Source of the DNA: Bacteroidia bacterium
Lineage (GTDB): Bacteria > Bacteroidota > Bacteroidia > M30B66
Assembly (NCBI GenBank): GCA_018401705.1
Contig: JAGYKL010000017.1
Coordinates: 1 to 64,000 of the forward strand
DNA: 64,000 bases
Reading direction: 5' to 3'
Shown here: positions 18,628 to 64,000 of the stretch, in pieces
Numbering within the stretch: position 1 is the first letter of the stretch
How the letters are laid out: each line of letters opens with the position of its first letter
Program-made: the position numbers and the translations under genes
The notes under the pieces: model-generated
Told to the model about the DNA's origin: nothing
Database searches by the model: none
What the model saw: the letters and a program-made list of their open reading frames with translations, nothing else

Positions 18628-20187
18628 ATGTCTGCAACAATTATTATTGGATCCAGAGGCTCTGACCTGGCTCTTTGGCAAGCTCATTACACCAAGAATT
18701 TACTGGAAGCAAAGGGACAAACTGTTGAAATTAAAATCATAAAAACCCAGGGCGATAAAATTCAGCACCTCTCATTTGACAAAATGGAAGGCAAAGGTTT
18801 CTTCACCAAAGAACTTGAAGATTGCCTTCTTTCGGGAGAAATTGATTTAGCAGTTCACTCACATAAAGATTTACCTACTACAAATCCCCCGGGATTAAAA
18901 ATAGCAGCAGTTTCATACCGCGAAAACTGCTCAGAAACTTTACTAATCCGCCCTGAAGCATACGACCCAATTGCAAAATTCAGATTGAAGGCTTCAGCAA
19001 TTGCAGGTACTTCTTCTCACAGAAGAAAAAGTCAGCTTTTGCACCATCGGCCCGACTTAATCATTAACGATCTTAGAGGAAATGTGCCCACAAGAATCGG
19101 GAAACTTATTGATAAACAGTACGATGCAATTGTTTTGGCTAGCGCCGGATTAAAACGCTTGAACCTTCAACCTGAAGGACTTATTCAATTTGAGTTATCA
19201 CCAATTGACTTTATTCCTGCTCCGGCTCAAGGGGTTCTGGCATATCAGATTAGAGAAAATGACAGCACTCTCGAGGCAATTGTAAAGCAACTTCATAATG
19301 AAGATGTTTATCGTTGTATTTCTGTTGAGAGGGGTGTTTTAAATCGCCTCGACGGCGGATGCCAACTGCCTTTGGGTGTTTATTGTGAGGAAGACAGCCG
19401 GGGTTTTCACTCTTATGCATCCTTGCAACCTCTTGATGGAAAGGCTTATCGAAGGTTTTATCATTTTTCTGAATCATCAGAAAATCTGATTGATAATTTA
19501 ATTCAAAGGCTTGAACGTATTGAAAATAGAAGCGTGTACATCTCCCGCGAAGCGGAGGAAGCTAACCTGTTTCTTAAACAATGCAATTCATTTGGATTTA
19601 AAACGCATGCTCAAGCGCCGTTAATAGCTGAAACGCTTGAGGTTAATCACATGCCTTTTACTGAATGGGTTTTCTTTAGCAGCCGAAATTGCGTAAAGCA
19701 TTTCTTTGAACAAGAACTCATGATTCCTGAAGTTGCTGCTGTTGCTGCAATGGGCTCGGGCACTGCCGAAGAATTGAAGAAGCATGGCATTTCTGTTTCC
19801 TTTGAAGGTGAAGATGGAAAAACTGATGAAACAGCAGCTCGCTTTCTAGCTCAGGTTAAGGGCAAATCTGTACTTTTTCCAGTAGGAAACTCAAGCCTGA
19901 GGACAGTTCAAAAAGCTTTGGAAAAGGAAGTTGAATGCCACGATATCCTCGTTTACGAGCAGAAAGCTAATCCTGAATTCAAGGCTGTTGATGCACATAT
20001 ATATGTATTCACAAGTCCGGCTCTATTTGATGCTTATCCTGATAAATCACAATTGCAAAATGCTCAGCTTATTGCAATTGGCGAAACTACAGCACAGGCT
20101 ATCCGTAATGCTGGATTTAAGAATGTGCACGTTGCCAGAAGCACGAATGAACAGGCTTTAACAGACCTTGTCTGCGGATTACTCTAA
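18628..20187 (+). CDS. hemC-hemD: hydroxymethylbilane synthase / uroporphyrinogen-III synthase fusion
   Basis: A 519-residue bifunctional protein. Residues 1 to about 300 are HemC: GSRGSDLALWQA, TQGDKI, HSHKDLPT, GTSSHRRKSQL, and LDGGCQLPLG whose cysteine (about residue 248) would carry the dipyrromethane cofactor. Residues about 305-519 are a HemD-like domain (VFFSSRNCVKHFFE, FPVGNSSLRTVQKAL, FTSPALFDAYP, AIGETTAQAIRNAGF). HemC joins four porphobilinogens into hydroxymethylbilane; HemD closes the ring with inversion of ring D. Fusion puts both steps on one chain, so the unstable bilane could be passed directly. It follows hemA by 8 bp. Its 3' end overlaps the convergent amidohydrolase by nine bases. 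HemD sequences diverge strongly, so that half is assigned partly from position. Confidence 0.9.
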   Translation: MSATIIIGSRGSDLALWQAHYTKNLLEAKGQTVEIKIIKTQGDKIQHLSFDKMEGKGFFTKELEDCLLSGEIDLAVHSHKDLPTTNPPGLKIAAVSYRENCSETLLIRPEAYDPIAKFRLKASAIAGTSSHRRKSQLLHHRPDLIINDLRGNVPTRIGKLIDKQYDAIVLASAGLKRLNLQPEGLIQFELSPIDFIPAPAQGVLAYQIRENDSTLEAIVKQLHNEDVYRCISVERGVLNRLDGGCQLPLGVYCEEDSRGFHSYASLQPLDGKAYRRFYHFSESSENLIDNLIQRLERIENRSVYISREAEEANLFLKQCNSFGFKTHAQAPLIAETLEVNHMPFTEWVFFSSRNCVKHFFEQELMIPEVAAVAAMGSGTAEELKKHGISVSFEGEDGKTDETAARFLAQVKGKSVLFPVGNSSLRTVQKALEKEVECHDILVYEQKANPEFKAVDAHIYVFTSPALFDAYPDKSQLQNAQLIAIGETTAQAIRNAGFKNVHVARSTNEQALTDLVCGLL

Positions 20188-48849: not shown

Positions 48850-49614
48850 CTATATGCTTGAATCATCAGCTGCATAAGAATGCATGCTTAACATGAGCTG
48901 TGTCAAAAGTCCCGGGTCGGTTTCAAGCGCATTGCCAACAACCACTAAATCAGCGCCGGCATAGATTGCCATACCCAATTTTTCGGGAGAATCAATTCCA
49001 CCTCCCACGATAAGTGGTACTTGTAATTCGCTCTTAACTGAATGAATCATCTCAGGAGGAACAGGCCATTTTGCTCCACTTCCTGCTTCAAGATAAATTA
49101 ATTTCATACCAAGCATTTGCCCTGCTAAAGCAGTTGAAAGTGCCAGTGACGCATTTTCTCTTGGTAAAGGCTGGGTCTGACTCATATATGCAACCGAAGT
49201 CAACTTACCGCTTTCAACAAGCATGTAACCAGTTGGTATTACTTCTATGCCCGAAGCGTGAAGTTCCTGAGCAGCAAGAACGTGTTTTCCAATAAGCAAA
49301 TCTGCATTTCTTCCTGAAATTAAACTTAAAAGTAAGAGAGCATCGGCTCCGGGATAAAACTGTGCTTCGTGGCCGGGAAATAAGACAACAGGACATTTTA
49401 GCCCAGATTGTTTAATAGTGTCAACACAGGGCGGAACCTGAGATGCATTAGAAGTTGAGCCTCCAACAAAAATCAAGTCAGGTGGCGTTTCCATAGCTAT
49501 CCCAAGCAATTGATTAAGCCTGTGGGGAGTTACTTTTCCGGGGTCAATGAGCACTGCCAATAATGGTCGGCCAATGGTTTTTGATTGAAGTATGAAGTCT
49601 AAGATTTTGCTCAC
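48850..49614 (-). CDS. geranylgeranylglyceryl/heptaprenylglyceryl phosphate synthase family
   Basis: A TIM-barrel prenyltransferase of the GGGP-synthase/PcrB family, which joins a polyprenyl diphosphate to sn-glycerol-1-phosphate. Seen: LLAVLIDPGKVTPHRL at the N-terminus, FVGGSTSN, VVLFPGHEAQFYPGADALL, EVIPTGYMLVESG, KLIYLEAGSGAK, PLIVGGGIDSPEKL and VVVGNALE. Family proteins start a few residues before the LLAVLIDPxK segment, so I place the start at GTG 49614 (MSKILDFILQ), giving 254 residues. Longer frames with ATG at 49683 or up to 49746 add residues without family likeness. Bacteroidota carry such homologs of archaeal lipid enzymes; the chain length is not evident. Converges on the methyltransferase gene. 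Confidence 0.85.
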   Translation of the reverse strand: MSKILDFILQSKTIGRPLLAVLIDPGKVTPHRLNQLLGIAMETPPDLIFVGGSTSNASQVPPCVDTIKQSGLKCPVVLFPGHEAQFYPGADALLLLSLISGRNADLLIGKHVLAAQELHASGIEVIPTGYMLVESGKLTSVAYMSQTQPLPRENASLALSTALAGQMLGMKLIYLEAGSGAKWPVPPEMIHSVKSELQVPLIVGGGIDSPEKLGMAIYAGADLVVVGNALETDPGLLTQLMLSMHSYAADDSSI

Positions 49615-49618
49615 GGGG

Positions 49619-49626
49619 CAAATATA
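49619..49626 (-). promoter_or_regulatory. candidate -7 box of the GGGP-synthase gene (TATATTTG)
   Basis: Full TAnnTTTG match only 4 nt upstream of the GTG start at 49614, which would give a leaderless or nearly leaderless transcript. If a longer upstream start is correct this match is coincidental. Confidence 0.3.
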
Positions 49627-49994
49627 GTTTTCAGCGCTTTTAATTTTTAAAAATTGTGTGATTTCATTTCGATTTCTTCTCATGCATTGCATGAAATGAT
49701 AGCAAAACCAAGCCAATTTAAGCCTTATGGGCAGTATTTCGCCCAAACCTTACTTCTAATGACGGCTGTGAATAGGCTTATTTAAAGAGCGTGAAACTTG
49801 AATAAGGTTCTGATAAATAGGAGGATAGGTGTTTAAAATAAGCGAGCCATTTGACCAGATTCTTACAGGTGTAAAGCAAAGGCTAAATGCCCAAAACTCT
49901 AGCTATGGGCCTGAACGTACTGAGTAATAGCCTAAGAAATCTACAAAACTCAAATGCCTTTGGACAACTCATACCACACCAAAATCCGATCATT

Positions 49995-52900
49995 ATGAAC
50001 GGCAAAAGGAAAATTTTAAGTACTTGTGTGGTCTTGTTGGTTTCAAGCTGGATGTCATTGCATGCCCAGCTAGTTACAACAGGAAGTGGGACTGTTTCGG
50101 CCAATGCTCTTGTAAATAACATCATTGGTTCAGGTATCACATTTAGTAATGCTTCATATACTGGAAAGCCTGTAGCGGTTGGTACTTTCAACGGTGCAAG
50201 CTCCAATATCGGACTAAACTCTGGGGTTATAATCACCACCGGACATATTAACGTGGCTCCGGGACCTAATGATAATGGAGGTGCAACTTATAGTAATAAC
50301 GGGCCAAGCATTCCTGAACTTCAGCAATTGGCTCAATCAAACACACTCGACGGGGCTATTCTTGAATTTGACTTTGTGCCTCAATCAGATTTTGTTAGCT
50401 TTAGGTATGTTTTTGCATCTGAAGAATATAACGAATATGTATGTTCTGAATTTAATGATGCATTTGCATTCTTCATCACCGGACCTGGCATTACAGGTGC
50501 CGAAAATCTTGCATTAGTTCCTTCAACCACAACTCCGGTAACGATTAACACTATTAATAATGGTAGTGTTGGAGCTTTGGGAAGTATTACGAATTCTCCG
50601 TGTATCTTAGGAAATTCGGCGTATTTCGTTGGAAATACTCAAAATACAGTTCAGTATGATGGTTGGACAACCGTACTTACTGCAAGTCGCACAGTAGTTC
50701 CTTGTCAAACGTATCACATCAAATTAATGATTGCAGATGGGGCTGATGATATTTTTGATTCGGCTGTATTCTTAGAAGAAAACTCTTTTAATGCTGAAAC
50801 TTTTACGGTTTCAGTATCTACATTTTACAATGATTCAACTGTTTATGAAGGGTGTACAGATGCAACGGTAACAGTTAGTCGCCCAGATGCAGATCCAACA
50901 CCTTTAACAATTTCATATACCGTTGGCGGAACTGCAACTCCGGGCGTTGACTATGCTGCACTTCCTGGAACAGTTACAATTCCTGCAAATCAGTCGAGCG
51001 TTACATTTTCTATCGAAGGTTATGCCGACGGTATAACTGAAGGCACTGAAACTATCATAATCAATGCAAACACTGCTTGTGGAGTGATTCCACAGGTGAT
51101 TTTTCTGGAAGAAAAGCCACCTGTGAGTATTTATGCACCTGATGTCTCTATCTGTAATGGACAAGGACCTGTAGTTGTTAATGCTACTCCTTCGGGTGGA
51201 GTTCAACCTTATTCGTATTCATGGAACACCGGTGAAACGTCTTCTTCCATAAGCGTTAATCCTGCGTCAACAACAGTATATACTGTTACGATAACAGACT
51301 TTTGCGGAACAACATCTCAAGCTCAACCTATCGTTGATATTGCAAATGCACCTACAGCGTCAATTAGTGCACCTCCTTTTGTTTGTTCGGGAGTACCCGT
51401 AACAGTAGCTTACACAGGAACTGCTTCACCTGCAGCTACATACATTTGGGATTTTGATAGTCCATCAAGTGTAAATAGTGGCTCAAGTCAAGGTCCTTAC
51501 CAAGTGAGCTGGGATTCTTCAGGAGTGAAAATAATCACCTTGCAAGTAATTGCGAATGGATGTTCTTCTAACGTTGTGAGCACTCAAGTGCTAGTTAATC
51601 CAACTCCAACAGCCGAATTTGTTGTAGATCCTGTAGTTTGTGCCGGGCAAACAACTACCATCACTTATACCGGAACTGGTACCGATGGCGGAGGTTATGG
51701 CTGGGGTTTCCCTGGTGGTGTAATTATTACCGGTGGTAGGAGAGGTCCGTTTGAAATCAGATGGGATTCAGTTGGTGTTTACGGAGTTACTCTCACAGTA
51801 ACAGAAAATGGTTGTGAATCGCCCGGAAACGAGGTTTTTGTAAATGTTCAACCAACACCAACTTCTGATTTTACCGCCGAAACTCCCGTGTGTGTTGGCG
51901 AGCCATCAACTATCTCATACAATGGAACAGCTTCATCAACTGCCACCTACAATTGGAATTTTGCAGGAGGAATGATTGCCAGCGGCAGTGGTCCCGGACC
52001 TTATGAAATTGTTTGGAATACTCCTGGAACAAAAGACGTATTTCTTTCAGTCACAGAAGCTGGTTGTTCCAGTAACATCACCACACAACAAGTTATCGTA
52101 AATAATATTCCTACGGCTAACTTTACCGTTGCTTCGCCAGTTTGTGCAGGGCAACCAACTACTGTTACTTATACAGGAAGTGCAAATAATAATGCTCAGT
52201 ATGATTGGAATTTTGGCTCAGCTACCGTTATTTCTGGAGCTGGACAAGGACCATACACTATTTCATGGCCAAACCCTGGAACTTACCCCGTAAGTTTATC
52301 TGTAACCAGAAATGGTTGTACATCAAATCCTTTTATCGAATCAGTTGTTGTAAATGCCATTCCAACAGCTCCTTTCACAGTTGAAACACCTGTTTGTGTG
52401 GGTGAAGGTGCTGCCATAGCTTTCTCTGGCGTGGTGCAACAAGGTGCCGTTTTTAATTGGGATTTTACCGGTGGTGAAATTCTAAGTGGGCTAGGGGCCG
52501 GACCATTTGAGGTTTACTGGCAAACTCCCGGAACTAAGCAAGTAACTTTAAGTGTTACTTCCCCGCAAGGTTGTCCATCACCTCCAACAACACAGCCTAT
52601 TGTAGTTAACCCTACACCAACTTCGATTTTCAATGCAGAAACACCTATTTGCCTAAATGAATCATCAACAGTAACATACACTGGTTCAGGCAACCCTTCT
52701 GCTCAATATACTTGGAACTTCAATGGTGGAAACATCCTTTCCGGATCAGGGCAAGGTCCATTTGAAATCCAATGGGGAACTCCCGGAATAAAAACACTGA
52801 CAGTCCAGGTCGAGGAAAATGGATGTATTTCACCTCCAACTACTCAACAGGTAAATGTTTTACCATTGCCAACGGGCTTCTTCACTACAGTTTCACCAGT

Positions 52901-55166
52901 CTGTGCTTTTAGCACAACTTCAATAACTTATTCAGGAAATGCATCACCAGGTGCTTTCTTTAGCTGGGATTTTGATAATGGTATAATCGTAAGTGGCTCA
53001 GGGCCTGGACCAATTCAAGTTTATTGGGAGTCTCCGGGACCCAAAAGCATAAGATTAGTTGTAGAAGAAAATGGTTGTAGCTCATATGAAGAAGTAAACA
53101 TTGTAAATGTTAATCCGATTCCTACAAACAGCTTTAGTGCAACATCTCCGGTTTGTATTGGAGAAGCATCAATAGTAAATTATACTGGAAATGCTCTCAG
53201 CAATGCAAACTTTGTTTGGGATTTTGGCGAAGGAACAGTTCTTTCTGGAGCAGGCGATGGTCCTTTTGAAGTTGTTTGGGATAGTCCCGGTCAAAAAGAA
53301 ATAACACTCAATCTGAGTCAGTTTGGCTGTCCGGGTCCTGAAGCTGTGCAAACAGTTCAGGTGAATCCAATTCCAACATCTCCTTTTATTGCTGATGAAA
53401 GGGTTTGTGTTGGAGCTTCGGCTACAATAACTTACACAGGAACAGCAGGTCCTTTAGCTAATTATAATTGGAATTTTAATGGAGGAGTGATTGTATCTGG
53501 TTCAGGGCAGGGGCCTTTTCAGGTGTATTGGAATACTCCCGGAATTAAAACAATCACTATGAGTGTGGTTGAAAATGGCTGCCCTTCAACTCCATCAACC
53601 GCTCAGGTTGAAGTAATTCCTTATCCTACTTCTGACTTTACTGCAGTTCCCTTGGCATGCCAAGGATACTCAACCACTGTTACTTATACAGGAACATCTT
53701 TGCCAGAAGCAATATTTGATTGGAGCTTTGCCGGTGGAGAAATTGTTTCAGGTTCAGGTGCTGGTCCATATCAGATTTCTTGGGAAACAATTGGAGATAA
53801 GACACTTACACTTACTGTAAATCAATATGGCTGTGAGTCAGATCCTTCTGAAGTCGTTCTTAACGTTGCACCTACACCTGAAGCTTTAGCTGGTGATGAT
53901 CAATTGGTTTGCCCGGGCGATGAAGTTCAATTGGGCTCACCTACGGTGGATATTTATGAATATTCTTGGACTCCGGCAACAAATCTGGATAACCCAACTA
54001 TTGGAAATCCTATCGCTGTTCTTGAGAATTTCAGCAATGAAATTGAGGTTACTACTTTTATAGTTGCTACAACACTTGGTAATTGCACGGCTTACGATAC
54101 CGTTGACGTTAGTGTTCAACCATTGCCGCAGGCATGGTTTGATTCACCTGTAGGACAATGTTTACAAGGCAATAGTTTTGACTTTAATCTAGGTGGCAAT
54201 TTTAGTGAGAATGCTCAATTTGACTGGAACTTTGGTCAATTCGCTAATCCTACTGCAAGTAATATTCAATCGCCTCTGGATGTAGCTTTTGGAACTGTTG
54301 GAACACATATCATTACACTTCAGCTTCAGGATTGGGGATGTGCAAGTCCGGTTTATACCGATTCGGTAGTAATTTATCCTATGCCATTAGCTCGTTTCGA
54401 GGCTGATGATGTTGAGGGTTGCCCTCCATTGAATGTAACGTTTACCAATCTTTCTTCCGAATTTGGTAATCCCCAGTATAACTGGGACATGGGAGATGGT
54501 TTCCAAATGGAAGGATTTATTCCGGTGCATGCATACAATGAATCAGGGAATTATTCGGTAACTATAACTGTAACTACTGAACAGGGTTGTTCAAGTGAGT
54601 ACACAGCTCACTCTGCAGTAACAGTTTATCCAAAGCCGGATGCAGGCTTTAAGGTAAATCCGCAGGTGTTAACAACTGCGCATCCTTTGGCAAACATCAT
54701 TGACCAATCTTCTGGTGCAATTTCATGGGTTTATACCCTAGGCGATGGAACAAATAGTTACGAGAGAAACTTTACTCATAATTACTTTGAACCAGGTGAG
54801 TATGCTCTTTCACAAAGAGTTACAAACCAGTTTGGATGTCAGGATGTGGCAATTTATCAGCTCAAGGTTGAGCCTGTAATGACATTCTTTATCCCGAATG
54901 CTTTCACACCAAATGAAGACGGAACAAACGAGATTTACAAATGTGAAGGGCTCAACATTGAGGATTTCAGAATGGAGATCTACACACGCTGGGGTGAATT
55001 AGTTTTCGAATCAAACGACATCGACTATGGTTGGAACGGAAGAAAATTCAATGATCCAAATCGTCCGATGTCGCAGATGGATGTATATGCTGTAGTAGTG
55101 TATGTGCGTGATAACTCTGATTTACCAATGCGAAGGATTGATCACCGTGTTACTTTGGTGAGGTAA
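49995..55166 (+). CDS. giant choice-of-anchor-L / PKD-repeat protein with gliding-motility C-terminus
   Basis: A 1723-residue secreted protein starting at ATG 49995 with a signal peptide ([20 protein letters not shown]). Residues about 30-270 are a choice-of-anchor L domain ([37 protein letters not shown]), next a Calx-beta-like module ([31 protein letters not shown]), an Ig-like segment, ten PKD-like repeats, further PKD modules, and the gliding-motility-associated C-terminal domain ([20 protein letters not shown] to DHRVTLVR). That tail is a T9SS type B sorting signal. Likely a cell-surface or matrix adhesin. The neighbouring giant (55845) has the same start and end modules. No catalytic domain is seen. 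Confidence 0.92.
51351..53870 (+). repeat. ten tandem 84-residue PKD-like repeats
   Basis: Within the giant protein, ten units of about 252 bp follow without gaps (2520 bp). Each begins with a PTxxF/I segment, has a Cys in a PVC-type motif (APVC, SPVC, ETPVC), the phrase YTGxA, a tryptophan-containing NWxF segment, GPGP or GQGP and ends with an NGC-type Cys. The cysteine pair in each unit could form one disulfide per repeat. Sequence divergence between units suggests old, not recent, duplication. Confidence 0.9.
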
Positions 55167-55773
55167 TTTCCTTTCTCACAAACACAAGCCAAGAATCATT
55201 GTCTGGCATAAGCCATTCAAGTAAAAAAGTTCTTCTCCCTTCGGGTAGAAGGATGCTTCCTTCAAAAGTGCCTGAGTGTATTGAATCGAAATTATAGATT
55301 CTCAGGTTGCTTTTAAATTCCAGCGACCTTCTGCCATATGCTTTGTAGAGTGATTCTTTGGCTCCCCAAAAAATTTGCAATGCCGACTGTTGATCTTTTG
55401 ACCTGGCAAGAAGTTCTATCTCTTCTGAATGCAGAATTCGTGGAGCAATTTTCTGTAATTGAAGTCGCTTGTGTTCTATATCAAGTCCTTGAAGATGTAG
55501 TGAAGAAAAAGAGAGGAATAACCACTTATTTGTGTGACTTATTGAAACATATCCCTCTTTTCCTTGAGGCCAGGGTTTCCCAAATTCATCATATTTAATG
55601 CTAAAGCCAAAGTCATTAAGGGTTTTGAAATATTTTCCACTAAGTTCTCTCGACAAACTTTCTCCTTTACTTAAAGGCTTATGGTCAGTGAGTTGAATTC
55701 CCACAAGGCTGCATTCATCGCGTTGAATGCGTAAGATGTTTGGGATTCGATCTTTAGTAGATATAATAGTCAC
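55150..55773 (-). CDS. 4'-phosphopantetheinyl transferase family protein
   Basis: A 207-residue Sfp/AcpS-superfamily enzyme that moves phosphopantetheine from CoA to a carrier-protein serine. The signatures are [11 protein letters not shown] (metal-binding Asp/Glu, about residue 117), [15 protein letters not shown] (about residue 160) and YVSISHT in the middle. The start is a GTG. It sits between two giant surface-protein genes and overlaps the 3' end of the first by 17 bp on the opposite strand. No polyketide or peptide synthase is nearby, so it probably serves a fatty-acid carrier elsewhere. Confidence 0.88.
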
Positions 55774-55844
55774 TGTATCTTAGTAAAAGTTTAGGGAAAC
55801 AGTATTTTTTTGATTATTTTTACGCGTTAAATAAAGCTTTGCCC

Positions 55845-58800
55845 ATGGCAACAAATCTACGTAACTATTCAGTTCTCATTTTAATTCTCCTTTTTTCTGT
55901 TTTTAAATCAGAGAAAGCAGCAGCACAGTTTGACGTTGACACGAGTCTGACAAACAATGAATATATCAATAATCTTGTTGGTTTAGGTGTTTCATTTGGC
56001 AATGTTCAGTTTCAGGGCGACGGACAAGCTATTGGCTATTTTACAGGAGCAAGTAATAACCTTGGTTTTTCGAGTGGAATTATACTTTCAACAGGCCCTG
56101 CTTCTGCGGCAGACGCAGCAGATCCCGGCTTTGGATTTTTGGAAAATGGACTAACGAACATTCCTGAATTAGCTGGATTTGTTCAAAACTGCTTCACTCC
56201 TGGAGCAACCAACGATGGTTTGATTCTTCAATTTGACTTTGTTCCTCAATCATCGCCAGTTAGTTTTCGGTACATTTTTGCCTCTGATGAATACCCCACA
56301 TATGTTTGTTCTCAGTATAATGATGCATTTGCATTCTTAATTAGTGGTCCGGGAATTATTGGAGAACAGAATCTTGCAGTTGTGCCAGGAACAGGCGATC
56401 CTATAACGATAAATACCATTAATTCAGGTGCTGTTGGGGGAGCAGGCGACCCTGGTAACGACCCTTGCATTCTTACAAACTCACAATATTTCAATCCGAA
56501 TGGCCCTGCCGATTTGAGTTATGGTGGATATACCAATGTAATGACTGCAGTTGCAGATGTTACTGCTTGTGAAACTTATACTTTAAGATTAATTATAGCC
56601 GATGGATGCGATTCTTCTCTTGATTCAGCGGTTTTTTTAGAAGCTAACTCATTTGGAGCAGCTCCAATATCAATCGCCCAAACAACACTTAATGGAGATT
56701 CTCTTACTTATGAAGGTTGCGCTCCTGCTACGTTGATTTTCTCGCGTTCCGAGCCTGACCCATTTGATTATGTTTTCCCATTCACACTTGCAGGTACAGC
56801 AATTAACGGTGTGGATTACCAACAGGTGCCTCCGTCTGTTACTATTCCTGCGGGACAAACCTCGGTTACACTAGATATCATAGGTTTAACAGATGGAGTA
56901 GTTGAAGGTACCGAAACTATTGAGTTAAATTATGAAACTGTTTGCGGAACGATTTCTACGTTAATTTATATCACTGAGCCGCCTGCATTAGTTGTTACTC
57001 CAGATCCGGCTCCATCTCTTTGTGGTGGTCAGGGTCCTGTTACAGTTTCAGGTATTGCCAGTGGAGGTGTACCAGGATACACATATTCTTGGTCAGATAA
57101 TTTAGGAACTGCTACATCAGCAGATGTGAATCCATTTGCTACAACAACTTACGTTTTAACTGCAACAGATTTTTGTGGTGTTGAAGCCTCTGCAAATATC
57201 ACTGTGCCGGTAGGCACTACACCCGAGGTTCCTGTGATTGATCTTCCTCTTGATCCTATTTGTGAGCAAGAAACGATTAATATTAGTGCTTCCACCACGA
57301 CTCCAGGAGCAGATTTGTATTGGACTGGTCCGGATAATTTTACTGCTGATGCTGTAAATGCAATCCAAATTCCCAATGCAACTGTTCTCAACGATGGTGT
57401 TTATTCGGTGTATTCATCATTAACAGGATGTAATAGCGCTCCTGCATCTGTAACAATGACAGTTAAACCAAGACCTTCAAATCCGGTAATTAATACTAAT
57501 TCACCTGTTTGTGAAGGCACTCCAATTAATCTAACAGCTGCCGTTTTACCTGCTAATTCAATAATTAGTTGGACAGGTCCAAATAGTTTTGCAGCTAATG
57601 GTGCAGCAGTTACAATTGCTTCCGCTACTATGGCAGATGGAGGAATCTATGCAGCAACAGCTACTTTAAATGGCTGTGATGCAAATGCAGCTGGAAGTGC
57701 CTTAGTTGTTGTAAATGACACTCCTGATGCACCAGCAGTAACTGCTAATACTCCAGTTTGTGCAGGCTTTGATTTGAATCTCTCAACCACAGTTACAGCA
57801 GATAGCTACAATTGGACAGGGCCTCAGTCATGGACAGCTACCCAACAAAATTCAACGCGTCCAGCAATGACTGCTTTAAATGCTGGTCAGTATTCTCTGG
57901 ATATCACAATTAATGGATGTACAAGTCCTGCATCTCCAATTAATGTTCAGGTAATTGATGCATCATTCTTACCTCCAATAGTTTCAAACTCCCCTGTTTG
58001 TGAAGAAAGTCCATTGACTTTTTCAACACCTACAGTTAACGGTGCACAGTATTTTTGGAGTGGTCCTAATTCATTCACAAGTAATGATGCTGATAACGAG
58101 ATAGGTATCACAGCCGAGCTAAATGAAGGTGATTATTCTGTTTATTTAGTCATTGGTGCATGCACCACAGCAACAAATACTTCAACACTTTTAATTAATC
58201 CAATTCCAGTTGCTGATGCTGGATTAGACATACAGATTTGTTCACTTGAAGATGGTCAAATCGGAGCAGATCCTGTTCCAGGATATTCTTATTCTTGGTT
58301 CCCTGCAGATAGTTTGAATTCTGCATCTATTTCTAATCCAACAGTAAACATTGGAAATATTGGTGGTCCGACTGATAATCTCATTTATACACTAACTGTA
58401 ACTGCAGGAGGTTGTTCTAATACTGATGATGTTCTCGTTGAAGTTAGACCGCAGCCAATTGCTTCATTCACGACTCCAGACCCACAATGTTTCGAAGGAC
58501 ATTCATTCGATTTCTATGGTGAAGGTAATTGGGAATCAGCAGATCCAAGATTTGTGTGGGATTTTGGTCCTTGGGCAACGCCCGATTCTTCTTTATTAAG
58601 AAGTCCAGAAGGTGTAACATTTTCCGCTACAGGTTTACACCTAGTGCGCTTTACAATCATTGATCAAGGTTGCGCTAGTAACACTTTTATTGCTCCGGTA
58701 AATGTTAAGAAAATGCCTGTTTCAAATTTCACAGCTAACACAATTACTGCTTGTGAACCTTCTTTGATTTTATTTGAGAACCTCTCAGATAATGAAGGAA

Positions 58801-59492
58801 GTCAAATGGAATATCAATGGAATTTTGGAAATGGCATCAGTTCCAATGCTGCTAATCCAACTGTTCTGTTTTCAAATCATGGTAAATATGATGTGGAGCT
58901 AGTAGTTGAAGGAATTAACGGTTGTGTTACTGATTATGTTATTCCAAACATGATTACTATTAATCCAACCCCGCAAGCAAGATTCGAAGCTAATCCGTTA
59001 CTTACAACTATTGTTGAGCCTGAGATTACGTTTAACGACTTATCTGTGCTTGCCGACGAATGCATGTATGACATGGGTAATGGAGATACTGTTTTCACGT
59101 TCAACCATGTTTATACTTATCCTGATACCGGATCTTATATAGTTTCTCAAATATTAACGAATGCCCAAGGATGTCGTGATACAGCTTATGCTGATATTCG
59201 AATTGATTTAGGCTTTAAAGTTTATATTCCTGCTGCATTTACTCCAAATGATGACGGATTGAATGACTTATTTATGGTTTACGGTGAAGAGTTTACCGAT
59301 TATTCGATTCAAATCTTTAATCGTTGGGGACAAATGCTATATCAATCGTTTGATTCAGACAATGGATGGGACGGAAAAACTAGGCTTTCAGACGAACCTG
59401 TTCAAGGTGGAGTATATGTTTACTCAATCAAACTGAAGGATAAATACGGTTTACCTTACACCTACAGAGGAGAGGTAACAGTTTTGCGTTAA
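55845..59492 (+). CDS. giant choice-of-anchor-L / Ig-like repeat protein with gliding-motility C-terminus
   Basis: A 1215-residue secreted protein starting at ATG 55845 (a TTG six bases upstream is less likely). The signal peptide is NYSVLILILLFSVFKSEKAAA. Residues about 30-270 form a choice-of-anchor L domain (NNLVGLGVSFGNVQF, ASDEYPTYVCSQYNDAFAFL), then a Calx-beta-like module (AGTAINGVDYQQVPP), then four Ig-like repeats of about 80 residues each with the pattern NSPVCEGTPINLT and a WTGPNSF-type aromatic core (57218-58200), further PKD-like modules (YQWNFGNGISSN), and a gliding-motility C-terminal domain (YIPAAFTPNDDGLNDLFMVY to EVTVLR). It is a paralog of the preceding giant with different central repeats. 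Confidence 0.92.
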   Translation: MATNLRNYSVLILILLFSVFKSEKAAAQFDVDTSLTNNEYINNLVGLGVSFGNVQFQGDGQAIGYFTGASNNLGFSSGIILSTGPASAADAADPGFGFLENGLTNIPELAGFVQNCFTPGATNDGLILQFDFVPQSSPVSFRYIFASDEYPTYVCSQYNDAFAFLISGPGIIGEQNLAVVPGTGDPITINTINSGAVGGAGDPGNDPCILTNSQYFNPNGPADLSYGGYTNVMTAVADVTACETYTLRLIIADGCDSSLDSAVFLEANSFGAAPISIAQTTLNGDSLTYEGCAPATLIFSRSEPDPFDYVFPFTLAGTAINGVDYQQVPPSVTIPAGQTSVTLDIIGLTDGVVEGTETIELNYETVCGTISTLIYITEPPALVVTPDPAPSLCGGQGPVTVSGIASGGVPGYTYSWSDNLGTATSADVNPFATTTYVLTATDFCGVEASANITVPVGTTPEVPVIDLPLDPICEQETINISASTTTPGADLYWTGPDNFTADAVNAIQIPNATVLNDGVYSVYSSLTGCNSAPASVTMTVKPRPSNPVINTNSPVCEGTPINLTAAVLPANSIISWTGPNSFAANGAAVTIASATMADGGIYAATATLNGCDANAAGSALVVVNDTPDAPAVTANTPVCAGFDLNLSTTVTADSYNWTGPQSWTATQQNSTRPAMTALNAGQYSLDITINGCTSPASPINVQVIDASFLPPIVSNSPVCEESPLTFSTPTVNGAQYFWSGPNSFTSNDADNEIGITAELNEGDYSVYLVIGACTTATNTSTLLINPIPVADAGLDIQICSLEDGQIGADPVPGYSYSWFPADSLNSASISNPTVNIGNIGGPTDNLIYTLTVTAGGCSNTDDVLVEVRPQPIASFTTPDPQCFEGHSFDFYGEGNWESADPRFVWDFGPWATPDSSLLRSPEGVTFSATGLHLVRFTIIDQGCASNTFIAPVNVKKMPVSNFTANTITACEPSLILFENLSDNEGSQMEYQWNFGNGISSNAANPTVLFSNHGKYDVELVVEGINGCVTDYVIPNMITINPTPQARFEANPLLTTIVEPEITFNDLSVLADECMYDMGNGDTVFTFNHVYTYPDTGSYIVSQILTNAQGCRDTAYADIRIDLGFKVYIPAAFTPNDDGLNDLFMVYGEEFTDYSIQIFNRWGQMLYQSFDSDNGWDGKTRLSDEPVQGGVYVYSIKLKDKYGLPYTYRGEVTVLR

Positions 59493-59517
59493 TCGCTAGG
59501 TAAGTTTCTCTTGGGAA

Positions 59518-60339
59518 TTAATCTTTTGAATCTTCTTCCTTGCCTTCTTGAATGTTTTCAGGCTCAGATGAGATAGATGTGCTTCTGGTTTCTATTCCTT
59601 CCCTAAGAAGCGAATCTTTCAGTGATTGAATTGAATGGCCTTCTTCTAAGAAAAAGTGGCCTGAAACTATTCCGTCAACATTTGTGACTTTAAAAGCCTC
59701 AATAAAATCTTCTTCCTTTCTGGCACCGATAGAAACGAGCAGCGGAACTCTTGTATTGTTTCTTATTTGCTTAAGTATCTGTTCTACAGCTTCTTTATCT
59801 CCCTCTGAACGAGCAATAGTGGATACAAGAATTTCGCCAGCTCCTCTAAGCTGAATCATCTCAATCCAGTTTAATAAATCTATCTCAGTACGCGATTTTC
59901 CTCCATTGAGATATACTTTCCAAGCCCCAAAGGTTTGGCGTGTGTCAACTGCAACAAGCAAAGAATTGCTTCCATATTTACTCGTGATTTTGTTAATCAA
60001 AGCAGGATTTCTAACTGCAGCAGAGTTAACATATATCTTCTGAATTCCTAATTTGAGCATATCTTCAACATCAGTCACAGAATGAATTCCACCTCCAAAA
60101 GTGATAGGGATTTTAAGTGTATTTACTGCATCTTTTAAAAAACGACTTAGGTTTCTTCTTTTTTCTGAGATGGTAGTAACATCCATTATAATCAGTTCTT
60201 CCGCTCCCTGAGCTTGAAAAGCCTTGGCTTTTTCCATCGCTTCATTGTAGTCAAGAACATGTTGCCTCGTTTCTGTTTGGGCAAATTGACCATCAGATGT
60301 ATAGATGCTTGGTATGATACGTTTTACTTGTGATTCCAT
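59518..60339 (-). CDS. HisF-like TIM-barrel protein lacking one catalytic Asp
   Basis: A 273-residue TIM-barrel protein related to the cyclase HisF. HisF-like text: RIIPSIYTSDGQ, AKAFQAQGAEELIIMDVTT, TFGGGIHSVTDVEDMLKLG, LLVAVDTRQTFGAWKVYLNGG, GAGEILVSTIARSEGD, PLLVSIGARKEEDF. Canonical HisF needs two aspartates: Asp11 in the CLDVKDG segment and Asp130 near the AIDA strand. The second is kept (VAVDT) but the first position reads Tyr (SIYTSDG). No HisH or other histidine gene is adjacent, and the C-terminal tail is acidic (EEDSKD). It may act in another pathway, as WbuZ/HisF2-type homologs do, or be a degenerate paralog. A -7-like TAAATTTG lies 8 nt before the ATG. Confidence 0.8.
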   Translation of the reverse strand: MESQVKRIIPSIYTSDGQFAQTETRQHVLDYNEAMEKAKAFQAQGAEELIIMDVTTISEKRRNLSRFLKDAVNTLKIPITFGGGIHSVTDVEDMLKLGIQKIYVNSAAVRNPALINKITSKYGSNSLLVAVDTRQTFGAWKVYLNGGKSRTEIDLLNWIEMIQLRGAGEILVSTIARSEGDKEAVEQILKQIRNNTRVPLLVSIGARKEEDFIEAFKVTNVDGIVSGHFFLEEGHSIQSLKDSLLREGIETRSTSISSEPENIQEGKEEDSKD

Positions 60340-60394
60340 CTTAAGGGCAAATTTAATCTATTTCAGTTCGCAACGTTATTGATAAAAGAGCTTG

Positions 60395-60424
60395 TTGTTT
60401 TAGAATGAAGAAACCGTACATTCG
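60395..60424 (+). promoter_or_regulatory. candidate promoter of the POT transporter gene
   Basis: TTG at 60395-60397 is followed after 19 nt by TACATTCG (60417-60424), one mismatch from TAnnTTTG, with the spacing expected for the Bacteroidota housekeeping sigma factor. The transcript would start about 36 nt before the ATG at 60466. Confidence 0.45.
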
Positions 60425-60465
60425 CATTTGTCATTTTTTTAAAACTATCCAATTAACACTAAAAT

Positions 60466-62187
60466 ATGAGCGAAACAGCTACAACCGGACACCCAAAAGG
60501 ACTCTATCTGTTGTTCGTAACAGAAATGTGGGAGCGCTTTTCATACTATGGAATGCGAGCCCTATTTGTGCTTTTTATGACAAAAGCACTTCTATTTGAC
60601 AAAGAATTAGGATCTCAGATTTACGGAAGTTATACAGGCTTAGTTTATCTAACACCTCTAATTGGGGGGTACATGGCCGACAGATATTGGGGAAATAGAA
60701 AATCAATTATTATTGGAGGTATATTAATGGCTATTGGTCAGCTGTTTATGTTTTTTGCAGGTACATTTTTTCAGGACGTAGATTTGGCGAGCTTACTGAT
60801 GTATTTTGGATTAGCGTTCTTAATCTTTGGGAATGGTTTTTTCAAACCTAATATCTCTACAATGGTAGGTCAATTGTATCCTGAAAATGATTCCAGAGTC
60901 GATTCCGCTTTCACAATCTTTTACATGGGAATAAATCTAGGCGCTTTTATTGCTCCTTTGGTTTGTGGCTATCTTGGCGATACTAAAAACGCAGCCGATT
61001 TTAGATGGGGCTTTCTAGCTGCATGTGTGGGAATGTGCATTAGTCTTGTGCTTTTCATAACTCTTAAGAATAAATATGTTGTTACTCCAGATGGAGTACA
61101 AATTGGTGTAAAACCAAATCAAGCCAGAACCGTAACCACCGGAGAGCCTGAAGTGAAGGTTTCAAAATCTGTTATGGCTGTTTGGGTTGGTATTTTTCTG
61201 GTATTATTCGCATTGCTGTTCTTTGTTCTTGAAGTAGATATTATCGGTTGTTTTATTTTTTCACTCACAATATCAGCTCCGGGGTTCATTATTTCTGATC
61301 CTTCACTCACTCCCATTGAACGTTCCAGAATCTGGGTTATTTACATCATTGCATTCTTTGTGATATTTTTCTGGGCAGCTTTCGAACAAGCGGGTGCTTC
61401 TCTTACTTATTTTGCTGAAGAACAAACTAACAGAAATGTCCTTGGATATACTGTTCCTGCCTCTTATTTTCAAAGTATTAACGCACTGGCAATCGTAATC
61501 TTTGCCCCAATCTTTGTTTGGCTTTGGGGCTTTTTGGGCAAGAAGAAAATGGAGCCGGCTTCTCCATTTAAACAAGCACTTGGTTTATTTCTACTTGCAG
61601 TAGGATATTTGGTTATCGCTTTTGGTGTGCAAGGTCTTCAGCCAGGAGTGAAAGTAAGCATGATTTGGTTAGTGAGTTTATATACAATTCACACCTTAGG
61701 TGAACTTTGTCTTTCGCCAATTGGACTTTCAATGGTGAATAAACTTGCTCCTGCAAAATTTGCATCCCTGCTTATGGGTGTTTGGTTTCTTTCCACTTCT
61801 GCGGCAAATAAATTTGCCGGAACTCTTAGTGGTTTATATCCGGAGCCTGTTGTTGCAGTTTCTACCATTCAGGAAATTGAAAGTAATAATAGCATAACAC
61901 TTCTTCCAGAAGCATTTAAGATTGACGATGCTCAAGTAGTCGATAATCAGAAAGTGATTCCTATGGAAAAGGTGATGATTACAGCTATTAAAGATGAAGC
62001 TGTTAAAGAAGATGTTAAGAAAATAGTTGAAAGTAGCTTGGTTAAGAACCCTAAATTCTTTGTAGGCTTTGAAATTCTTACACTCTATGATTTCTTTATG
62101 CTGTTTGTGTTTATGGCTGGTGCAGCTTCTGTGGTATTATTCTTCTTGAGCAAGAAGATGCTATCAATGATGGGCGGAATTAGATAA
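60466..62187 (+). CDS. proton-coupled peptide transporter (POT/PTR family MFS)
   Basis: A 573-residue inner-membrane protein with 12-14 helices that imports di- and tripeptides with protons. The signature EMWERFSYYGMRALF (about residue 20) contains the ExxERFxYYG motif; FGNGFFKPNISTMVGQLY and the FYMGINLGAFIAPL helix are the PTR family patterns. Near the C-terminus an extra polar segment of about 70 residues (SNNSITLLPEAF to SSLVKNPKFF) extends a loop before the last helices. It fits the peptide-using lifestyle implied by the S46 dipeptidyl-peptidase at 4-6 kb. It ends before a strong terminator and has its own promoter. Confidence 0.93.
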   Translation: MSETATTGHPKGLYLLFVTEMWERFSYYGMRALFVLFMTKALLFDKELGSQIYGSYTGLVYLTPLIGGYMADRYWGNRKSIIIGGILMAIGQLFMFFAGTFFQDVDLASLLMYFGLAFLIFGNGFFKPNISTMVGQLYPENDSRVDSAFTIFYMGINLGAFIAPLVCGYLGDTKNAADFRWGFLAACVGMCISLVLFITLKNKYVVTPDGVQIGVKPNQARTVTTGEPEVKVSKSVMAVWVGIFLVLFALLFFVLEVDIIGCFIFSLTISAPGFIISDPSLTPIERSRIWVIYIIAFFVIFFWAAFEQAGASLTYFAEEQTNRNVLGYTVPASYFQSINALAIVIFAPIFVWLWGFLGKKKMEPASPFKQALGLFLLAVGYLVIAFGVQGLQPGVKVSMIWLVSLYTIHTLGELCLSPIGLSMVNKLAPAKFASLLMGVWFLSTSAANKFAGTLSGLYPEPVVAVSTIQEIESNNSITLLPEAFKIDDAQVVDNQKVIPMEKVMITAIKDEAVKEDVKKIVESSLVKNPKFFVGFEILTLYDFFMLFVFMAGAASVVLFFLSKKMLSMMGGIR

Positions 62188-62206
62188 ATAAATATTTGCA
62201 ATATTC

Positions 62207-62241
62207 AAAAGGCAACAAATGATTATTTGTTGCCTTTTTTT
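62207..62241 (+). terminator. intrinsic terminator after the POT transporter gene
   Basis: A 14-bp perfect stem (AAAAGGCAACAAAT with ATTTGTTGCCTTTT, 62207-62238) with a 4-base loop and trailing T run follows the stop at 62187. Confidence 0.85.
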
Positions 62242-62259
62242 ATACCAAAGCTTAATATG

Positions 62260-62267
62260 TATCTTTG
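62260..62267 (+). promoter_or_regulatory. candidate -7 box of the thioredoxin gene (TATCTTTG)
   Basis: Full TAnnTTTG match with only 3 nt to the ATG at 62271. If used, the message would be leaderless. The same octamer occurs before the downstream kinase gene. Confidence 0.35.
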
Positions 62268-62270
62268 AAT

Positions 62271-62795
62271 ATGCGTTACTTATTATTACTGACTTTTTTA
62301 ATTACAGCGCTTTTTTCAAAAGCACAAACTGAGTCAATTAATTGGATTAGCTTCTCTGAAGCAATGGAACTTTCTAAGACCCAACCCAAGAAGGTATTTA
62401 TCGATATGTATACTAATTGGTGTGGCTGGTGCAAACGAATGGATCAAACAACTTTTGCTAACCCTGACGTGATTAAATACATGAACGAGCATTTTTATCC
62501 GGTGAAGTTCAACACTGAATTAGAGGGCCCGATTACTGTTAAAGATTCAACGTATAAAATCAATCCAGCTTACGGCAGAAATGGTACTCATGAGCTTGCT
62601 GTTAGACTCCTTAATGGGAAACTATCATACCCAACATTTGTCTTTCTGGATGAGAAGTTTAACATTCTTAGTCCAGTTCCTGGATACCAGAAAACAGATC
62701 AGATTGAACCTATTCTAAAGTATTTTGGAGATCAGAATTATCTTGAAAAGTCGTGGGTCGAATTCAGTGAAGCATTTAAAGGCAGCTGGCAGTAA
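62271..62795 (+). CDS. secreted thioredoxin-family protein
   Basis: A 174-residue periplasmic thiol-disulfide protein. Signal peptide MRYLLLLTFLITALFSKAQ; active site WCGWCK in VFIDMYTNWCGWCKRMDQTTF (about residue 57); the cis-Pro loop is SYPTFVFLDEK. It resembles the thioredoxin_7/DUF255-like group that reduces disulfides or assists cytochrome and secreted-protein maturation. Start chosen at ATG 62271; the TTG six bases earlier belongs to the promoter element. A terminator lies directly upstream, so it forms a new unit with the kinase that begins 29 bp after its stop. Confidence 0.85.
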   Translation: MRYLLLLTFLITALFSKAQTESINWISFSEAMELSKTQPKKVFIDMYTNWCGWCKRMDQTTFANPDVIKYMNEHFYPVKFNTELEGPITVKDSTYKINPAYGRNGTHELAVRLLNGKLSYPTFVFLDEKFNILSPVPGYQKTDQIEPILKYFGDQNYLEKSWVEFSEAFKGSWQ

Positions 62796-62810
62796 GTTAG
62801 GCAACAAAGA

Positions 62811-62818
62811 TATCTTTG
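62811..62818 (+). promoter_or_regulatory. candidate -7 box of the second kinase gene (TATCTTTG)
   Basis: Full TAnnTTTG match 6 nt before the ATG at 62825; no -33 TTG at the expected distance. Possibly coincidental. Confidence 0.3.
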
Positions 62819-62824
62819 ACTGGA

Positions 62825-63814
62825 ATGCTTAATTTAAAATCCTTGCTTTTTAAAGATACACCACGTTCACTGCTTATATTCTATGTATTAGTAGTTTACG
62901 TCTTTCTTCAATTTTGTTGGTGGTCGTATTTGCTATTCGATTTGAATGCAGAGATTTTGGTTCTTAGGGAGCAACTGGCTCGTTTTTCGGGAGATGCTCA
63001 GCTAGGTGCCGAAAACATTTTAAAAGAGAAAATAGCGCAAAAGCGCTTGATGATTTTTGGCGAAGGAATAGTGTTTCTCCTACTGCTCTCACTGGGTATG
63101 ATGCAAACTAGGCGCTCCTTTAGAAGAGAAACAAATGTTGCTCGTCAACAAAAGAACTTCTTACTTTCTGTAACTCATGAGTTAAAATCTCCAATTGCTT
63201 CAGTTAAATTATACCTTCAAACACTTAGCAAACGAGAGCTTAGCAGAGAGAAACAGCAAGAGCTATTGTCAAAAGCAATAGAAGAAGCCAACCGATTAGA
63301 TCAATTGGTAGAAAATATCCTGCTGGCAAGCAGAATAGATAATCATAACTTTCAACTAATTGAGGAAGATATTAATTTAGGTGAGTTTCTCCACGATTTC
63401 ATTGACTCATTCGAGCTTAAAGCTCATAAACCAATTCTCACAAATATCGCATCCAATATTCATATTTCCGCCGACAGGCATGCATTGCATTCAATCTTTA
63501 GTAATTTATTCGAAAACGCAGTTAAATATTCAGGCGAGGATTTAAAAATTGAACTGAGTCTTTCACAAGTTGGCAATACAGCTAATGTTATTATTAAAGA
63601 CAATGGCATTGGTATTTCCGATGAAGATAAACTACGAATTTTCGATAAGTTTTATAGAGTAGGAAATGAAGAAACCCGCAGAACTAAAGGCACTGGTCTG
63701 GGCCTCTTTATTGTAAATTATCTTGTAAAAACTCAAGATGCCCAAATTGACGTGTACGATAATTCGCCGAAAGGAAGCATCTTTGAACTCAGATTTAATG
63801 TTCTTGACGCATGA
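62825..63814 (+). CDS. sensor histidine kinase
   Basis: A 329-residue membrane kinase. Two helices (LLIFYVLVVYVFLQFCWWSY and FGEGIVFLLLLSLGMM) flank a short extracytoplasmic loop, then a HisKA domain with phospho-acceptor His about residue 118 in LSVTHELKSPIASVKLYL and a HATPase_c domain (NLFENAVKYS, DNGIGISDEDKLRIFDKFYR, GTGLGLFIVNYLVK). No HAMP domain is seen. A response regulator is not adjacent in the window. Its stop overlaps the start of gpmI by four bases (ATGA), so gpmI is translationally coupled to it. Start chosen at ATG 62825. Confidence 0.9.
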   Translation: MLNLKSLLFKDTPRSLLIFYVLVVYVFLQFCWWSYLLFDLNAEILVLREQLARFSGDAQLGAENILKEKIAQKRLMIFGEGIVFLLLLSLGMMQTRRSFRRETNVARQQKNFLLSVTHELKSPIASVKLYLQTLSKRELSREKQQELLSKAIEEANRLDQLVENILLASRIDNHNFQLIEEDINLGEFLHDFIDSFELKAHKPILTNIASNIHISADRHALHSIFSNLFENAVKYSGEDLKIELSLSQVGNTANVIIKDNGIGISDEDKLRIFDKFYRVGNEETRRTKGTGLGLFIVNYLVKTQDAQIDVYDNSPKGSIFELRFNVLDA

Positions 63815-64000
63815 CAAATAAAAAAGTAGCACTTTTAATTCTTGATGGATGGGGAATTGGAAACGGAAAGCATTCTGACGCTATTCGCAATGCAAGAACT
63901 CCAGTTATGGATAAACTTCAAGAAGATTATCCTAACTCTACTTTAAGAACAGACGGATTAAATGTTGGTTTGCCCGAAGGGCAGATGGGGAATTCTGAAG
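63811..64000 (+). CDS. gpmI: 2,3-bisphosphoglycerate-independent phosphoglycerate mutase, 5' part
   Basis: Only the first 63 codons are in the window. They read KKVALLILDGWGIGNGKHSD then AIRNARTPVMDKL and PEGQMGNSE, the unmistakable N-terminus of GpmI: LILDGWG carries the first metal-binding Asp and QMGNSE the catalytic Ser. The enzyme interconverts 3- and 2-phosphoglycerate in glycolysis. It starts inside the stop of the kinase gene (ATGA). The remainder lies beyond the right edge. Confidence 0.93.
   Translation, partial: MTNKKVALLILDGWGIGNGKHSDAIRNARTPVMDKLQEDYPNSTLRTDGLNVGLPEGQMGNSE

Follow-up and report, generated by a model that had tools for sequence, protein, structure and literature searches.

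HisF serves as a model of how barrel enzymes evolve, and relatives of it have been put to other uses. PriA and other repurposed HisA/TrpF barrels changed function after the loss of pathway genes and serve histidine, tryptophan or specialised metabolism; the protein analyzed here would represent a change of function within the same superfamily, although neither the histidine nor the tryptophan pathway was found in its host. The WbuZ and AglZ/HisF2 proteins (NCBIfam models TIGR03572 and NF038364) are paralogues related to HisF whose genes lie outside the his operon, and the majority lack Asp11, as does our protein; in contrast to the clade described below, HisF2 genes adjoin a HisH gene and their products retain the second phosphate site. 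Extra hisF2–hisH2 copies occur in Bacteroidota and Chlorobiota (PMC8305728). These are likewise additional hisF genes outside the his operon in the same superphylum, but they are described together with hisH2 (PMC8305728), whereas our gene stands alone. For HisF itself, catalysis is attributed to two residues, Asp11 and Asp130 (PMC11350729, PMC5919458), the two sites for the phosphates of the substrate PrFAR are placed at T104 and A224 (PMC10115891), and the exchanges G20A, T21G, N22A, F23A and G30A are reported to reduce turnover while K19A does not (PMC11350729). Within the literature searched, there are few descriptions of natural HisF descendants that lie outside glycan loci and have had their active site dismantled, and no description of a HisF paralogue of the present kind was found in the open-access papers covered. 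The clade can be regarded as a natural experiment, in which a close relative (genome G007) still has the original enzyme, and it makes testable why cells keep a biosynthetic barrel after its pathway has been lost.

A divergent HisF paralogue with an intact reading frame

We analyzed a stretch of 64,000 nt from the Bacteroidia contig JAGYKL010000017.1 (the window). The gene of interest occupies positions 59518–60339 on the minus strand, with an ATG start and an intact open reading frame for a protein of 273 aa (P0001). Pfam His_biosynth matched residues 7–233 with 160 bits (cut-off 23.6), which bears out the HisF-like barrel that a preliminary description had assigned to this position from the sequence alone; no further Pfam domain was found in the protein, and TrpF (PF00697) was absent from its Pfam matches. 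The best NCBIfam models were hisF (TIGR00735), WbuZ and AglZ/HisF2 with 175.4, 166.7 and 134.8 bits, and none of the respective cut-offs (294.55, 299.7 and 310 bits) was reached. Two further orthologs scored 183.3 and 162.2 bits with TIGR00735, again below the cut-off, which the canonical HisF of G007 passes with 334.8 bits. As tested, the protein belongs to neither HisF, WbuZ/HisF2 nor TrpF.

The AlphaFold2 model (mean pLDDT 87.9, pTM 0.83) best matched HisF structures in Foldseek, and its VIA-align superposition on 1thf gave a Z of 30.8 and an rmsd of 1.9 for 235 aligned residues. In this prediction the protein has the (beta-alpha)8 fold of HisF; the comparison has no power to separate HisF relatives from one another, as the top matches are all HisF or HisF-derived designs. 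With HisF (PDB 1THF) it shares the whole barrel fold, about 32% identity, Asp51, Asp130, Gly80-81, Asn103 and the pattern of the beta5 hairpin. It differs at Asp11, the KGxNF motif, Asp98, Asp176-Gly177, Gly202, Gly205, Ser225 and His228, and also in the absence of an adjoining HisH gene and of a detectable his pathway.

Orthologs were found in one family-level lineage

Orthologs, 52–64% identical to P0001 depending on the alignment, were found in 8 of the 10 genomes of the family, the same 10 genomes representing both family and order. When 395 genomes of the class were searched with a profile of the eight orthologs (A1), the orthologs scored 433–472 bits and the next best match 201 bits; among 395 genomes of the phylum only that of the window passed 1e-60, so that at these thresholds neither set yielded an ortholog from outside the family. 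A scan of GTDB contigs returned 27 sequences: seven orthologs, whose metagenome-assembled genomes carry Bacteroidetes or Chitinophaga in their titles, and 20 other relatives; it relied on exact peptide patterns and could therefore miss diverged orthologs. As far as searched, the clade is thus restricted to a single lineage of family rank within the class. The two family genomes lacking the gene are G007, in which the his operon is present and the syntenic slot holds no ortholog either, and G009 (73% complete), which showed neither a his locus nor an ortholog nor a POT match. Since the POT match is missing as well, the corresponding region of G009 may simply be absent from the assembly.

For phylogenetic analysis we used hand-chosen subsets of 107 collected sequences. 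The eight orthologs formed one clade (100/99), apart from the HisF2 clade (99/90) and from HisA, and this clade was recovered (100/100) when HisA and HisF2 were left out. Its stem was very long, 1.71 changes per column in the first set and 3.64 in the second, and for this reason we distrust the deep placement of the orthologs next to HisA in the first tree. AU tests, on a set that left out HisA and one very long HisF2-like sequence (L003), rejected neither a joint clade of the orthologs and the HisF of G007 (p 0.263) nor one of the orthologs and HisF2 (p 0.134). In a kinase comparison G007 stood a little further away from the window (46% versus 53% identity), a difference too weak to place G007 in the family. 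The preliminary description had cited WbuZ/HisF2 homologs as showing that the fold can be reused in sugar modification. Membership in WbuZ/HisF2 was not supported: the cut-offs were missed, the clade is separate in the tree, no HisH lies beside the gene, and the residues that separate HisF from HisF2 (Thr149, Ala128, Gly144 and Ser201) are of the HisF type in all eight orthologs; sisterhood with HisF2 was, however, not formally rejected by the AU test above (p 0.134).

The cyclase active site is dismantled while one phosphate site is kept

We compared residues at functional positions between the eight orthologs, 35 canonical HisF and 8 HisF2 sequences, using Thermotoga maritima numbering. The 20 other GTDB relatives, 15 of which were used in alignment A2, are biased towards sequences that keep the hairpin pattern, and the counts were therefore redone on these 35 HisF, a residue-inspected subset of the class matches that had not been chosen by pattern. 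At the position of the catalytic Asp11, the general acid of HisF, we observed Tyr in seven orthologs and Phe in one, compared with Asp in 35 of 35 canonical HisF; the HisF2 proteins have Leu (six), Ile (one) or Asp (one). In P0001 this residue is Tyr13 (codon 60301–60303, minus strand), so that the replacement of Asp11 by Tyr read earlier from the sequence held in the alignment with T. maritima HisF, and no ortholog places an Asp there. The general base Asp130 corresponds to Asp132 (codon 59944–59946, minus strand) and is retained in 8/8. Lys19, Gly20 and Phe23 of the loop-1 KGxNF motif are absent from the orthologs. Asp98, which we take to be a HisH contact in HisF, is not retained.

The two phosphate sites fared differently. 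Asp51, Gly80-81, Asn103 and Ser/Thr104 are kept, along with Asp130, in all eight orthologs, and Gly82 in seven (Ser in one). Asp176, Gly177, Gly181, Gly202 and Gly205 are not retained: the end of beta6 and loop 6 (residues 173–183; 59791–59823, minus strand) has lost Asp176-Gly177 and carries an invariant Arg177. The Ser225 position, Ser in 35/35 canonical HisF, is His in 8/8 orthologs (His228 of P0001; codon 59656–59658, minus strand). HisF2 proteins retain Asp176 in 7/8, Gly177 in 8/8 and Ser225 in 6/8 cases, while the orthologs keep none of the three. Of the two phosphate sites of HisF the orthologs thus keep one. Judged by these residues, the T104-side (beta3/beta4) site is kept, though not flawlessly in view of the one Ser at Gly82, and the surroundings of A224 are rebuilt. 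The earlier statement that the phosphate-binding and second-Asp regions are kept is accordingly right for Asp130 and the beta3/beta4 site and wrong for the site formed by beta6, beta7 and beta8, which is lost. Glu46 and Glu167 are retained in 8/8 orthologs and the Lys99 position holds Lys or Arg; these three are the ammonia-gate residues of HisF, for which a protein without any ammonia chemistry would have no obvious use, and their retention weighs slightly against the view that this chemistry has been abandoned altogether.

The distribution of constraint along the barrel differs from that in HisF as well. Mean pairwise identity in beta1-alpha4 was 0.67 for the orthologs and 0.72 for canonical HisF, whereas in beta5-hairpin-alpha5 (residues 125–165) it was 0.79 versus 0.53 and in beta6-alpha8 0.48 versus 0.65. 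The most constrained part of the orthologs, residues 127–158 of P0001, is encoded at 59866–59961 (minus strand). These values indicate that the selective load has moved from beta6-alpha8 to the beta5 hairpin. For two ortholog pairs we obtained dN/dS values of 0.041 (G002/G004) and 0.064 (G003/G005), three other pairs tried being saturated. Reading frames are intact in 8/8 genomes and 83 columns are invariant across the eight sequences. The clade is under strong purifying selection, and the gene is clearly still needed by its hosts; a pseudogene is ruled out by dN/dS and the intact reading frames.

Histidine and tryptophan genes in the source genome and its family

The preliminary description had noted neither a HisH glutaminase nor a his operon nearby, and by eye we likewise found no HisH or his gene near P0001 among the open reading frames listed for the window. 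The source genome (3.74 Mb in 95 contigs, estimated 98.5% complete) contains three full-length-type PF00977 matches, namely P0001 and two genes on other contigs. Both of these are HisF2-like and each adjoins a HisH (222.9 and 207.5 bits, cut-off 105.4), so a search for the true hisF and hisH elsewhere in the genome yielded two HisH genes beside HisF2-like neighbours and no canonical hisF. One HisF2-like protein passes the AglZ/HisF2 cut-off (330.7 versus 310 bits). The other (L003, 1405–2193) comes nearest to the WbuZ model with 227.2 bits (cut-off 299.7) and is very divergent; its branch in the tree spans 3.33 changes per column.

Canonical HisF, HisA, hisD, trpF and trpC were not found in the source genome. 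In 14 control genomes the searches for PF00977, trpF and trpC were positive throughout and that for hisD in 13; as the latter missed Bacillus subtilis, the absence of one gene alone is no proof, and here missing HisA, trpC and trpF agree with missing hisD. Judged by gene content, the source organism would make neither histidine nor tryptophan. An argument against a lost HisF function would have been the absence of any other hisF from a histidine prototroph; it does not apply, because with hisD and HisA also not found the organism is not a prototroph on this evidence. The same 9 of the 10 family genomes yielded no hisD, trpF or trpC. In G007 canonical HisF, HisA and HisD are encoded in a his locus, where HisH and additional his genes were recognised by eye. 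The link between the paralogue and auxotrophy is therefore to be read as one evolutionary contrast (G007 versus the rest of the family), not as many.

A conserved POT neighbour and a promoter-like box

P0001 is flanked by POT transporter and secreted CHU_C/PKD genes and does not lie in a polysaccharide locus with a HisH. Divergently beside it is a POT/PTR2 peptide transporter gene (60466–62187, plus strand; PF00854, 204 bits), and a POT gene takes this position in 8/8 orthologous loci. The spacing was 92–126 nt in the seven loci whose start was placed by motif (in G004, at the ATG nearest to it); in G001 it was about 220 nt. Not all genomes have the same POT paralogue at this position. G006, whose other flank is different, keeps the pair of HisF-like and POT genes. 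G007 has POT genes, a kinase gene and a phosphoglycerate-mutase-like gene in the same order, with no HisF-like gene before the first POT.

Upstream of the HisF-like gene we observed a promoter-like TAnnTTTG box (60348–60355, minus strand) that starts 16 nt before the start codon. In 8/8 orthologs such a box begins 15–17 nt upstream of the start codon, compared with a mean of 0.26 and a maximum of 3/8 in 2000 rounds of composition shuffles. This motif, which we take to be the -7 box of Bacteroidota, suggests that the HisF-like gene is transcribed from a promoter of its own, with a very short leader.

On the other side of the gene, giant secreted PKD/CHU_C proteins with a type IX secretion signal are encoded at 49887–55166 and 55839–59492 (both plus strand). 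Between them lies a 4'-phosphopantetheinyl transferase gene (55150–55773, minus strand), and several orthologous loci have a similar layout.

A proposed new function for the barrel

Taken together, we interpret P0001 as a neofunctionalised HisF paralogue and give this explanation as a whole, including the mechanism below, a probability of about 0.5. That the orthologs are no longer the cyclase and are nevertheless still selected is very probable. We regard the cyclase role as lost with high confidence, since none of the orthologs retains Asp11, the motif of loop 1 or the second phosphate site, and no pathway was found that the enzyme could serve; with Asp98 gone too, the earlier judgement that canonical cyclisation is unlikely finds strong support. 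HisF converts PrFAR and ammonia to imidazole glycerol phosphate (ImGP) and AICAR; from the established chemistry of this enzyme we infer that the protein would be unable to form ImGP from PrFAR, with its two phosphates. It may instead bind a singly phosphorylated metabolite. In the mechanism that we tentatively propose, at somewhat less than even odds, such a small molecule would be held by the kept beta3/beta4 site (Gly82-84, Asn105 and Ser106 of P0001), while the conserved beta5 hairpin (WKVYLxGGKSRTEID) would close over it and Asp132, Arg177 and His228 would touch it, in a pocket deduced from the alignment to T. maritima HisF. A new reaction in a peptide-fed metabolism seems to us slightly more likely than a pure sensor: Asp53 and Asp132 have been retained, and at pocket positions polar residues not present in HisF have become fixed. 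It is unlikely, in our view, that after the loss of histidine and tryptophan synthesis the barrel, its substrate site half kept, came to couple a phosphorylated metabolite to peptide feeding via the neighbouring POT transporters.

A non-catalytic sensor or regulator that works with the POT array, for instance by binding a phosphorylated purine- or amino-acid-related ligand and acting on uptake or its expression, would fit the loss of Asp11, the divergent POT gene in 8/8 loci (including G006 with its different other flank) and hosts that look like histidine and tryptophan auxotrophs and plausibly depend on peptides. Yet the adjacent POT is not one paralogue throughout, Pfam shows no additional domain in the protein, plain synteny may preserve neighbours, and G007 has POT genes without the HisF-like gene; we regard such a sensor as unlikely, with perhaps one chance in a few. 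Far less probable is a HisF2/WbuZ-type partner in sugar amidation, supplied with ammonia by a HisH whose gene lies at another locus of the genome. Seven of eight HisF2 proteins also lack Asp11, the source genome has two HisH proteins, Glu46 and Glu167 are retained, and a joint clade with HisF2 survived the AU test (p 0.134); against this, the clade is separate from HisF2 in the tree and has lost Asp98 as well as the HisF2-kept Asp176, Gly177 and Ser225, the WbuZ and HisF2 cut-offs are missed by more than 130 bits, and each HisH adjoins its own HisF2-like gene.

Two further readings have hardly any chance of being right. A stand-in for TrpF or HisA might be expected from the kinship of HisA, HisF and TrpF as related barrels and from the missing trpF in 9 of 10 family genomes, but trpC and hisD were not found in the same nine, so there would be no pathway for such a replacement to serve, and we reject it. 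The presence of the gene where the his pathway was not found could also mean that it is decaying after the rest of a his operon was lost, a view contradicted by the low dN/dS (0.041 and 0.064), the intact frames and promoter-like boxes in all eight loci and the 83 invariant columns.

Other features of the window and related loci

No tandem repeats were found at 49000–64000. A PcrB-family barrel (geranylgeranylglyceryl/heptaprenylglyceryl phosphate synthase-like) is encoded at 48850–49746 (minus strand) and accounts for a weak His_biosynth match at C9:48889–49059. In G002, a HisF2-like protein that keeps Asp11 (L145, 6252–7022 of G002:C67) lies in a locus with sugar-biosynthesis-like genes; it is unlike the other HisF2 proteins of the family, and its contig is possibly a contaminant. 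Finally, the window encodes a HemC-HemD fusion of 519 aa (18628–20187, plus strand), in which the porphobilinogen deaminase domains PF01379 and PF03900 are followed by uroporphyrinogen-III synthase (PF02602).
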